Translations under genes and position numbers: made by a program
Source of the DNA: Rhizobium tibeticum
Lineage (GTDB): Bacteria; Pseudomonadota; Alphaproteobacteria; Rhizobiales; Rhizobiaceae
Direction of reading: 5' to 3'
Assembly (NCBI RefSeq): GCF_900110205.1
Contig: NZ_FOCV01000024.1
Coordinates: forward strand, 1 to 64,000
Length of the DNA stretch: 64,000 bases
Notes under the pieces: generated by a model
Told to the model about the DNA's origin: nothing
Database searches by the model: none
Seen by the model: only the letters and a program-made list of their open reading frames with translations
Shown here: piece by piece, positions 17,270-20,691 of the stretch
How the letters are laid out: each line of letters begins with the position of its first letter
How positions within the stretch are numbered: the first letter of the stretch is position 1

Positions 17270-17751
17270 AGACCTAAACGTCAAAGAAGCGGTTTGCTGC
17301 GATGTGACGTCTTAGCGTCGAGGCAACGACGCAAGTAGTTGGTCAGCGGGCGGTATTGCGCGAGCCGGCAAAACAGCTGGACATTGAACGGTCCCGATCC
17401 TGTCTGCGCCGTTTGGAATGCTGATTGGCGACCTTCCGAAATGCACGAACGCGATCAGGACCGATCACACCGAGCATTAATGATCTCTGCGGACGGGGTG
17501 AGGCAGTCACCGCCCCGGCGATGATATCCTGCAAGGGTTGGCAGCGTTTTAAACGAGAGACTTGACTTTCGGTTGTATTTTGCCGAAAACTCACGCGATC
17601 AATCCGAGAATATCGTCGAGCTCGACGCCTTTCAAAATCTCGCAAGAGCAGGCTCGACGACGTGCGAATTAGCGGCCTCGACCCAGCGGCTGGCCGTCAC
17701 ACCAGTATAATATTCTCGTGCAGACCAACCTATGTCTTGTCCGGGGGCCTA
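17270..17751. other. Intergenic stretch, nothing recognised
   Basis: No gene, hairpin terminator or repeat that I can support. It must hold the promoter for the tyrosinase-like/protease-nuclease pair, but no SOS, EcfG or sigma-54 type element was found. Confidence 0.4.
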
Positions 17752-18738
17752 ATGGCAATTCGGGTTTTGCCTTCACAGATCATCGAGATGCTTGCCTCGA
17801 GACGTCACCGCCTGCGCCATTTTCTATGGCATGCCGTGCGCGGTGCCTGGAACAATCCTCAGCTTACCGATGAGGTCAAAGCCTTCATCAGGGACAAGGG
17901 TTGGGCCCCACCCAATGACCGGGTGCCTCTAGATGCCGAGAGAAAGCTCATCCTGGACAATCATTCTGGGGAGGACTTCCTCTATATGCATCGGCAGATG
18001 ATCAAGGAAGTCGGTGAACTCCTCGAGCAGTTGGGAGAGCAGCCGCTCACATCCTGGCGCTCCATCCCAAAGCCGGGTGAACACCCCGACTTTGCGCTTC
18101 CTCCGGCCTGGACCTATAACGACCCCTCGGAGAGCGCTGCGACGAACGCGGCTATGACTGCAAGGCTTCAGCGCGTCAAATCAGACGCTTACTTTCGCGA
18201 CACGATCGCGACATGGGAGTCATTTTATACGAACCCCGCCAACCTCGCGCAGCTGTCGCTCGGAGCGTTGGGTAATCTGCTCGAAATGACCATTCATAAC
18301 AATCTGCATATGCGCTGGGCCAGCGTGCCGATCGGCTACATGCCTTCGCCCAACTTCGAGGACACACGCGACATCGATCCCAAATGGGACGCGGCCAGTT
18401 ACGACTATTTAGGCGACACCTATTCGAGCCACGTCAATCCGATCTTCTGGTACCTGCATGGATGGGTAAATTCCTGCATCGACCGTTGGGCCACGGCCAA
18501 TAGAGTGAGCGAAATTGCCTGGATAGGAACCTGGACCGGCAAGCTCGAAGACGGCTGGACGCACGGCGCACCAGAAGCCCTCACTGCTTCAGTCCGTCGC
18601 GAAGCGATGGGCGGACGCGGGCACGGTCATGCCGGGCACGAACAGGACGACGAAGACATCCGCGAGATGGAAGCGATCGTGCGAAAACTCGGTTCCTGCA
18701 AGGTCGTACGCAACTTCTACGACGTTCTGCGCGATTAG
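17752..18738 (+). CDS. Tyrosinase-like (type 3 copper) protein
   Basis: 328 residues from ATG 17752 (the frame is open upstream, but this start has the purine-rich CCGGGGG before it and begins MAIRVLPSQI). Histidines fall in a type 3 copper pattern. HSGEDFLYMHRQM (H71, H80) could form site A. IHNNLHMRW (H182, H186) and HVNPIFWYLHGW (H227, H236) followed by DRW match the HxxxH and (D/N)PIFWxxH...DRxW features of site B in tyrosinases. A His-rich tail GRGHGHAGH (about 289-296) could load metal. No signal peptide. Enzymes of this fold oxidise phenols, but substrate cannot be inferred. It lies 54 bases upstream of the protease-nuclease fusion on the same strand, so the two are probably one operon. 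Confidence 0.6.
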   Translation: MAIRVLPSQIIEMLASRRHRLRHFLWHAVRGAWNNPQLTDEVKAFIRDKGWAPPNDRVPLDAERKLILDNHSGEDFLYMHRQMIKEVGELLEQLGEQPLTSWRSIPKPGEHPDFALPPAWTYNDPSESAATNAAMTARLQRVKSDAYFRDTIATWESFYTNPANLAQLSLGALGNLLEMTIHNNLHMRWASVPIGYMPSPNFEDTRDIDPKWDAASYDYLGDTYSSHVNPIFWYLHGWVNSCIDRWATANRVSEIAWIGTWTGKLEDGWTHGAPEALTASVRREAMGGRGHGHAGHEQDDEDIREMEAIVRKLGSCKVVRNFYDVLRD

Positions 18739-18792: not shown

Positions 18793-20691
18793 ATGGCACG
18801 CAAGGCGACGCGCGGAACACGGCAATCCACCGGTGGAATTTCCGAAGAGGCATTGCGCCGGCATATTCGTGCCAAAGGCGCCGATTATCTGCAGGACCCG
18901 AACGTCACATCCGTGGGCATCGGACTGAAGAATGGAGACGGTCCAATCTGCCTGCAGTTCACGGTGGGCACGAAGGGTGACTCCGCAATCGAGGCACTTG
19001 GGAGCCGCCGCATTCCGGAAGCAATCGAGGTCGAGGGCGAGATGGTCCCGACCGATGTCCTGCAGCGCGACTATCGCCCTTCCTTCGAAATCGTTGCGGA
19101 GGAACAGGTTGATCTGCGCCGAAAGAGGATCGACCCGATCCGGCCGGGCGTCAGCATCGCTCATCCCTCCGAGACCGCCGGCACGCTCGGCCTGATCGTC
19201 TTCGACCGCACGACAGGTGCGCCTTGTGTCCTCTCCAACTGGCACGTCCTCAATGGCAACGCCGGAAAGGTTGGCGACACGATCGTGCAGCCGGGCCCCT
19301 ACGACGACAACAACGTTGCGCTCAATGTCGCAGGCAGCCTTCTGCGCAGCCATCTCGGCGCGGCCGGTGACTGCGCGCTTGCAAGGATCAGCCAACGTGG
19401 CTACGACCGCTCGGTCTATGAGCTCGACGTCGTACCGACCCGAATGGCGCGCGTTGCACTTGGCGACAAAGTGATCAAATCGGGACGTACGACGGCGATC
19501 ACGAGAGGCATCGTGCGCCGCGTCGACGTCATGGCGAAGATCGACTATGGGATTCCGGCTGGGGAGCAGGCGATCGGCTGCTTCGAAATCGGTCCCGATC
19601 CCCAGAACCTTCCCGCAGACGGAGAAATAAGCAAAGGCGGGGATTCCGGGTCCGCTTGGCTCATCTTCGACAGGGGCAAGGCGACCGACATATTTGCGGG
19701 CCTTCACTTCGCCGGTGAAACCGACAGGACGAGCGACGAGCACGCCCTCGCCTGCTATCCAGGCTCCGTTCAGAAGAAGCTCGACTTCGTCCTCGAGCCG
19801 AAGGGCGCGGCAACTGATGCGAGCGCCGGGATGGAAGTCGTTGTTCCCCGTAGTGGTTACGATGCGAGCTTCCTTGGAACAGCCGTTCCCGAGCCCGACC
19901 TGTCTACGGCCCAGAAGCGTGATGCCGTCAATTTCGAGCGCGCTCAGACGATCCCATACACGCATTTTTCGGTCTGCCTCAGCGCAAAACGCCGCATGGC
20001 GCGCTATGTCGCCTGGAACATCGACGGATCCCGGTTGGTGGCACTTCCGCGACGCGGATTTTCCGTCGACCCCAGGATCGAGGCCAAGTATCAGTTAGGC
20101 GACGATCTCTACGTCGATAACCGCGTCGACCGGGGCCATATCGCCCGGCGGGCGGATGTCTGCTGGGGACCGGTACCGGAGGCAGATCAAGCCAACCGCG
20201 ATTCATTCTACTTCACCAACATTGCTCCCCAGCACGAACGCTTCAATCAGTCCTCTCGAAAAGGGCTTTGGGGTGAACTGGAGAACCTCGTTTTCGATCA
20301 GGCCGACCTCAAGGACTTCAAGCTGTCGGTATTCGGGGGTCCAGTTTTCGGAAGCGAGGACATCGAGTATCGTAACGCACTGATCCCGCGCTCTTTCTGG
20401 AAGATGATCGCCTACCGCGGCAAGGACGACAGTTTGCGTTGCGCCGCATTCGTCCTTTCTCAGGAGAAACTTCTGGACGATCTTGAAAGATTGGATCTCG
20501 ATCCGTTCCGCATCTACCAGGTGTCGCTGCCGGAGCTCGCCAGGAAGACCGAGCTCAATTTCGATGCGCTTTCGACGGCTGACATCATCAGTCACCCGGA
20601 ACTCGTAACACGGCCGGTCGGCCCGGAATCCCTGGTCGACACGACCAAGCCCGTGACCGAGATCCGCTCACAGCGAGACATCCGCCTTTGA
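18793..20691 (+). CDS. Trypsin-like serine protease fused to DRGH (NucA-type) nuclease
   Basis: 632 residues. Residues 1-115 are an N-terminal region of unknown fold. Residues about 120-335 form a chymotrypsin-like protease with triad H151 (SNWHVL), D193 (GDCAL) and S285 (GDSGSA). Residues about 385-600 match the DNA/RNA non-specific endonuclease fold: DRGH at 447-450 with catalytic H450, then NIAPQ and FNQ with the metal-site asparagines, and GLWGELE. All catalytic residues of both halves are present. There is no signal peptide, so the protein would be cytoplasmic unless a dedicated secretion route is used. Fusion of a protease with a non-specific nuclease is typical of conflict or regulated-toxicity proteins; that role is inference. 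The tyrosinase-like gene immediately upstream is a likely partner. Confidence 0.8.
   Translation: MARKATRGTRQSTGGISEEALRRHIRAKGADYLQDPNVTSVGIGLKNGDGPICLQFTVGTKGDSAIEALGSRRIPEAIEVEGEMVPTDVLQRDYRPSFEIVAEEQVDLRRKRIDPIRPGVSIAHPSETAGTLGLIVFDRTTGAPCVLSNWHVLNGNAGKVGDTIVQPGPYDDNNVALNVAGSLLRSHLGAAGDCALARISQRGYDRSVYELDVVPTRMARVALGDKVIKSGRTTAITRGIVRRVDVMAKIDYGIPAGEQAIGCFEIGPDPQNLPADGEISKGGDSGSAWLIFDRGKATDIFAGLHFAGETDRTSDEHALACYPGSVQKKLDFVLEPKGAATDASAGMEVVVPRSGYDASFLGTAVPEPDLSTAQKRDAVNFERAQTIPYTHFSVCLSAKRRMARYVAWNIDGSRLVALPRRGFSVDPRIEAKYQLGDDLYVDNRVDRGHIARRADVCWGPVPEADQANRDSFYFTNIAPQHERFNQSSRKGLWGELENLVFDQADLKDFKLSVFGGPVFGSEDIEYRNALIPRSFWKMIAYRGKDDSLRCAAFVLSQEKLLDDLERLDLDPFRIYQVSLPELARKTELNFDALSTADIISHPELVTRPVGPESLVDTTKPVTEIRSQRDIRL

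Follow-up and report, generated by a model that had tools for sequence, protein, structure and literature searches.

A predicted conflict system in which a NucA nuclease is combined with a trypsin-like peptidase, either fused to it or encoded in the same operon, was described as System 3 by Kaur et al. 2020 (PMC7159879), who placed it mostly in Alphaproteobacteria. In the portion of that paper dealing with System 3, a proteolytic cascade is proposed to deploy NucA as the probable route of its activation, and a subset of the systems is described with further proteases or a STAND NTPase in the operon, EAD1 being present in a subset. System 3 was named NucA-trypsin in a 2021 paper. Activation of gated pro-nucleases by trypsin-like proteases in antiphage systems was demonstrated by experiment in Tuck et al. 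2025 (PMC12799240), which treats the nuclease–protease pairs of Hachiman, AVAST, Lamassu, DRT, and canu. According to its account of Hachiman, AVAST, and canu, disordered insertions gate pro-nucleases of the metallo-beta-lactamase type until a partner protease opens them; as far as the main text of that paper is concerned, neither NucA nor EndoG appears.

The window analysed here, a stretch of 64,000 nucleotides from Rhizobium tibeticum, encodes a protease and a nuclease in a single chain. An earlier note on this DNA had guessed at an effector of a suicide or conflict system that it did not recognise; the guess matches the published System 3/NucA-trypsin class, and the description as unrecognised is not supported. 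The protein is probably a conflict effector. The reading preferred here, to which we assign a probability of about 0.5, is that of a one-gene cytoplasmic protease-gated NucA effector of the NucA-trypsin conflict kind, with a NAL1-like protease in place of the usual Trypsin_2.

Architecture and Active Sites of the Fusion Protein

The gene occupies positions 18793..20691 of the forward strand, on which all features given below also lie. It starts with ATG, preceded at a short distance by GGGAGA, and encodes 632 amino acids that join a serine protease, NAL1-like by predicted fold, to an Endonuclease_NS (NucA/EndoG) nuclease. The chain opens with a disordered, mostly basic tail (residues 1–17, 18793..18843; pLDDT below 50 for residues 1–14), which in the 114 homologues parsed has a median length of 20 amino acids and a net positive charge in 87%. 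This tail is followed by an N-terminal domain that aligns with the N-terminal part of NAL1 in fold comparison (residues 18–110, 18844..19122) and by a chymotrypsin-fold protease domain delimited from the AlphaFold2 model and the alignment (residues 111–335, 19123..19797). A disordered, fast-evolving linker (residues 336–352, 19798..19848; pLDDT below 50 at 339–349, rate judged from dN) leads to the nuclease module (residues 353–607, 19849..20613), which begins with the motif R-x-G-Y-x-x-x-F-L. The protein closes with a conserved C-terminal tail (20614..20688), whose final residues are D629-I-R-L632.

The codons of the protease triad are located at 19243-19245 (H151), 19369-19371 (D193), and 19645-19647 (S285), and DRGH is encoded at 20128-20139. 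The earlier note had numbered the histidine of this motif 450, a position occupied by Ile; the residue is H449 (20137-20139). Its claim that a protease and a non-specific nuclease are fused with both active sites intact is borne out by the alignment A4, in which H151, D193, S285, D446, G448, H449, N476, N485, and E497 do not vary in any of the 43 rows, the window protein included, and R447 is kept in 42 of 43. The profile search of each half that had been suggested succeeded for the nuclease, assigned to Pfam Endonuclease_NS over residues 383–591 (E 2.8e-41), but not for the protease, for which no Pfam family, Trypsin_2 included, rose above its cut-off. NCBIfam and PADLOC profiles gave no match to the gene product at E<=1.

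In the AlphaFold2 model, the protease half adopts a chymotrypsin-type fold and the linker is the least confident internal part. With a pTM of 0.55, the model gives only a tentative placement of the two halves relative to each other and a tentative orientation of the protease site towards the linker. The residue six positions before S285, which we take to be the counterpart, in trypsin numbering, of the Asp of trypsin, is I279; therefore, a preference for Arg or Lys is not implied, and the term trypsin-like, as used in the earlier note, is valid for the fold of the protease but not for its specificity. 

Export signals were sought with a crude measure, namely a 12-residue segment of mean Kyte–Doolittle hydropathy above 1.8 within the first 45 residues. 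By this measure, none of the 118 homologues longer than 560 amino acids carries a signal peptide such as that of secreted non-specific nucleases, in agreement with what had been noted for the window protein, while 20.7% of the 1074 open reading frames of at least 150 amino acids in the 77 gene-bearing loci are positive. A 19-residue segment above 1.6 anywhere in the chain occurs in three of the 118 homologues. Homologues that are consistently secreted housekeeping hydrolases, the finding that had been named as counter-evidence, were not seen.

The Protease Half and NAL1

Structures of NAL1, whose fold is familiar as that of a plant developmental regulator, align with residues 11–339 of the model, whereas other proteases align only from about residue 114, and this pattern recurs when the protease half is modelled alone. 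Its predicted fold thus includes the N-terminal domain of NAL1, and on this basis the protease half is NAL1-like, after rice NARROW LEAF 1. At the level of sequence profiles, Pfam Nal1_C reaches 13.8 bits in the window half, below its cut-off of 26.1, and weak matches are found in 8 of 13 family members (best E 4.1e-4); a stand-alone relative found with this profile (L110) passes the cut-off at 27.0 bits. NAL1 was not matched in the PDB by sequence profile. The link to NAL1 is one of structure and of intermediates.

Relatives of the Nuclease Module

Matches on plasmids, nine of which were opened, align mostly over the nuclease only. Trypsin_2 and Endonuclease_NS are recognised together by Pfam in L119, L120, L123, L125, and L126; the order is reversed in L122, with a Trypsin on the opposite side of the nuclease; NucA is split from the protease in Polaromonas (L121), in a gene row of trypsin/AAA, AAA, and NucA; and L124 is a lone NucA. 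L008 and L009 also encode Trypsin_2–NucA proteins, L009 beside an S8 protease, a second trypsin, and an AAA gene. The protein encoded at 7131-9107 of L009, within this gene row, lacks the nuclease DRGH and is possibly a pseudo-enzyme.

The genome of the window holds a second protease–nuclease fusion, of Trypsin_2 and Endonuclease_NS (L002, 768 amino acids; contig C115, L116 4384-6819). A search seeded with it returned 408 proteins, nearly all of which, among those listed, combine Trypsin_2 with Endonuclease_NS. Downstream of this gene, at 7734-10818 of L116, three open reading frames look transposition-like by eye. A third NucA-type gene of the same genome lies at the end of contig C117 (L117), where a trypsin frame of 516 amino acids is accompanied by a nuclease piece in another frame, an arrangement for which decay and assembly error are both possible.

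Several traits are common to the window family and the Trypsin_2-linked nucleases. The R-x-G-Y-x-x-x-F-L start motif, although not strict in every row, is also found in the Trypsin_2–NucA fusions, the Polaromonas NucA, and the lone NucA, and DRGHxxRRxDxxWG is common to the window family and the Trypsin_2–NucA proteins. Moreover, a tail of the form [DE][IVLM]x[ILVFM] stands at the very C-terminus of 103 of 117 window-type and 76 of 111 Trypsin_2-type proteins, compared with 1.5% and 1.8%, respectively, of shuffled tails. A looser form is present in 66 of the 77 copies and in 14 of 1109 other open reading frames of the same loci. The strict motif is found in just 20 of 77, because actinobacterial copies finish in W or carry additional residues, their D-I-Q-W often being followed by at least one more. 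A tail common to operon partners was considered and rejected, the strict motif being present in none of 114 same-strand neighbours. Conserved in NucA fusions of both protease classes, this tail is a lead on how such nucleases are restrained or recognised.

A tree of 46 nuclease modules, built with no secreted-nuclease outgroup and containing long branches for L122 and L009, places the 20 NAL1-type rows together with a Paracoccus protein in one clade (100/100), among the Trypsin_2–NucA nucleases. Within this tree, the Hymenobacter and Acidobacteria rows fall inside Actinomycetota and Sodalis inside Alphaproteobacteria. This topology fits a single exchange of the protease followed by transfer, and sequence relationships indicate that the gene has moved between phyla. 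The Paracoccus protein (L007 7560-8879), which falls inside the NAL1 clade, carries a nuclease module of 54% identity behind a different N-terminus of 147 residues and lacks a protease; it keeps the C-terminal tail and a loop discussed next.

The loop at residues 485–490 (NQSSRK, 20245..20262) lies near the nuclease active site, has a low pLDDT, and is four residues longer than in the Serratia and Anabaena nucleases. Its role as a hallmark gate is weakened, since the insertion is missing from each of nine further NucA proteins that were inspected, whether linked to a protease or alone, and is retained in the Paracoccus protein, which lacks a protease; thus, it is a weak candidate for a gate.

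Genomic Neighbourhood

A leaderless PvdP-like tyrosinase (17752..18738; PvdP E 9.5e-35), with an earlier in-frame start at 17662, is encoded 54 nt upstream of the fusion gene, and glgB follows downstream on the opposite strand. The tyrosinase and the fusion stand side by side again in L004, L010, and two more Rhizobium plasmids, but this tyrosinase was found in one of 247 genomes of the family, that of the window itself. It is probably an operon partner, though solely within this lineage. Matches H49–H52, unannotated and in four other Rhizobium replicons, cover only residues 1–39 or 1–32 of the tyrosinase at 90–92% identity. Across the window, L132, L133, L134, and L010 (1879-3363), PvdP-like leaderless tyrosinases repeatedly adjoin proteases or LodA-like oxidases, namely S8, CAP, and matrixin genes in Paenibacillus, LodA/GoxA in Mesorhizobium, and M12 and S8 in Sinorhizobium.

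No constant operon partner emerged across the 77 loci. Twelve of the 77 loci, or 11 of 75 once two near-duplicates are removed, encode a hydrolase or tyrosinase no more than 300 nt away on the strand of the fusion: tyrosinase (the window, L004, L010), patatin (L011/L091), matrixin (L034, L037), amidase (L027, L028), a P-domain protein (L060), papain (L080), and S41 (L083). An astacin lies 475 nt from the fusion in L081, and LodA-like genes occur in L054 and, 6.6 kb from the fusion, in L010. The hydrolase and tyrosinase partners have no strong hydrophobic N-terminus by the crude measure. The remaining loci show ordinary or no close partners (ABC, HMGL, DUF429, transporters, chemotaxis). These counts rest on 77 loci because the crude gene caller failed in nine family loci, missing the gene in L018, L029, L056, L067, L069, L070, L084, and L087 and calling it partially in L023; L091 and L092 appear to repeat the genes of L011 and L012.

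Defence islands around the homologues, for which the earlier note had proposed a survey, are not evident: PADLOC matches among 127 neighbouring proteins are few and scattered, each of 25 of the 51 matching models being found in one or two members. On a linear plasmid of Streptomyces canus (L102), the fusion is located between a patatin-like gene and a cluster of baseplate-like, LysM, and AHH genes, of which Pfam recognises little.

Distribution and Selection

The protein has 1536 homologues at E<=1e-5, and most of the 120 listed among them are near 630 amino acids in length; the final protein search scored the 7996 candidates with most words in common. Full-length fusions occur sporadically in Alpha- and Gammaproteobacteria, Actinomycetota, Bacteroidota, Chloroflexi, and Acidobacteria, and Sodalis, Brenneria, and Pantoea are among the homologues listed. 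In a scan of species genomes, the best 80 of 164 relatives belong to Alphaproteobacteria, Actinomycetota, Hymenobacter, Chloroflexi, and Acidobacteria. Within the genus of the window, the full gene is present in 3 of 100 genomes and any match in 11 of 100. The fusion is essentially absent from the viral and phage collections searched, and a phage or viral origin was rejected, IMG/VR yielding one distant match to the protease only and phage records one nuclease match at 27%.

Both halves are under strong purifying selection, as judged from coding sequences, and their joint is free to vary. The dN/dS of the protease is 0.058 against R. leguminosarum (L010) and 0.053 against R. anhuiense (L011), and that of the nuclease 0.025 and 0.030, respectively. 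The dN of the linker (residues 336–352) reaches 0.74 and 0.72 in these comparisons, compared with 0.06 in the flanking domains. In alignment A4, no residue of the linker is conspicuous as a conserved cleavage position. The number of homologues and the strong selection on both halves show that the gene is not a product of chance.

Proposed Function and Alternative Explanations

The one-chain protease-gated effector proposed above is supported by the intact active sites, the variable and disordered linker, the lack of a detectable export signal, the sporadic occurrence of the gene, and a nuclease module common to protease-linked NucA proteins. The full chain would hold the nuclease inactive until a signal of infection or stress switches the protease on, perhaps through assembly of the kind reported elsewhere. 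A cut at the linker or a loop, made in cis or in trans, would then free the nuclease, which would degrade DNA and RNA and thereby kill or arrest the cell. Self-cleavage that releases the nuclease, as the earlier note envisaged, is possible. The proteolytic release of a pro-nuclease has been demonstrated by experiment for the other nuclease–protease pairs of Tuck et al. 2025. Against this reading, no sensor gene such as STAND or EAD was recognised beside the fusion in the window, no constant partner exists across the 77 loci, PADLOC matches among the 127 neighbours are few, and the loop is a weak candidate gate. A more daring and rather improbable extension would regard the protein as a one-chain suicide switch of NAL1-type protease and DNase/RNase with the tail D-I-x-L/W as a latch or recognition peptide, which in some lineages would also activate co-encoded leaderless proenzymes such as tyrosinase, in the style of a prophenoloxidase cascade.

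The main rival, which we regard as unlikely though deserving serious attention, is a leaderless enzyme acting outside the cell after lysis or through a non-classical route, alongside loosely assembled groups of hydrolases and oxidases that likewise have no leader (tyrosinase, LodA-like oxidase, patatin, matrixin/astacin, amidase, papain, S41). It stays alive because such genes adjoin about 11 of 75 copies; the astacin and LodA-like neighbours, the company kept by tyrosinase relatives elsewhere, and the partners' own want of a strong hydrophobic N-terminus point the same way, but most loci have ordinary or no close partners, an export signal is lacking, and the nuclease is related to intracellular conflict nucleases. 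Secretion by a type I system, with which an acidic-hydrophobic C-terminus is associated, was set aside, as the tail is kept in Actinomycetota and the protein has no RTX repeats. Injection into other cells by a contractile or type VI system, which the setting of the S. canus plasmid copy suggested, appears very improbable. The injection marker Pvc16_N is present in 17 of the 49 family-bearing genomes searched, a survey covering gene-bearing genomes only; it has no match in the genome of the window, where the controls were silent too, or in 11 alphaproteobacterial genomes (G100–G110), and no immunity gene or delivery domain was recognised. Cargo of an injection system was thus rejected as a general role.

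Two further explanations dispense with gated killing, and we give little credence to either. A housekeeping or maintenance enzyme, whose protease acts on other proteins and whose nuclease acts on damaged nucleic acid with no role in conflict, would agree with the presence of EndoG and EXOG among the closest solved nucleases, one PDB entry of which bears EXOG as a DNA-repair enzyme in its title; nevertheless, an occurrence in 3 of 100 genomes of the genus together with a spread across phyla is atypical of a housekeeping gene. Alternatively, the two halves could be independent, an unlinked inhibitor or low expression keeping the nuclease in check and the protease having targets of its own. The Paracoccus nuclease module without a protease and the linker without a standout cleavage residue would suit such independence, but most homologues listed retain the entire fusion, at lengths near 630 amino acids, and both halves are strongly selected. 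Should the preferred reading of a protease-gated NucA effector hold, nuclease immunity under protease control would occur within one polypeptide, the protease module would be exchangeable for one of NAL1-like fold, and the predicted NucA-trypsin class could be tested with two mutants of one gene.

Comparison with Known Systems

The window protein shares its nuclease fold and DRGH site with the Serratia nuclease, Anabaena NucA, EndoG, and EXOG. Unlike these, it has a protease partner in the chain and extra segments after DRGH and in the loop at residues 485–490, and it has no signal peptide. Compared with rice NAL1 (PDB 8PMI, 7Y77, 8HAU), it is 17% identical, bacterial, and fused to a nuclease. 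Our reading, if right, would suggest a bacterial reservoir for the NAL1 fold. No description of a NAL1–NucA protein was found in the literature, in a search limited to open-licence papers.

A serine protease combined with an indiscriminate nuclease, and control of the nuclease by proteolysis, here predicted, link the protein to the pairs of Tuck et al. 2025. As described there, however, those nucleases belong to the metallo-beta-lactamase type and come from a gene of their own, a sensor being joined to the protease, whereas the window protein combines a NucA-type nuclease with its protease in one chain. The protein resembles System 3 in that a NucA domain (E 2.8e-41) and a chymotrypsin-fold peptidase with an invariant triad stand in the same chain, the start motif, DRGHxxRRxDxxWG, and the C-terminal tail are held in common, and one Trypsin_2 fusion resides in the same genome. 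It differs from System 3 in that its protease is NAL1-like and escapes Trypsin_2, no STAND or further protease genes are recognised beside the gene in the window, the NAL1–NucA family is widespread in Actinomycetota, and no transmembrane segment is indicated by the hydrophobicity measure. The class itself is already in print, and what differs here is a NAL1-like protease within the single chain, usually without a constant partner.
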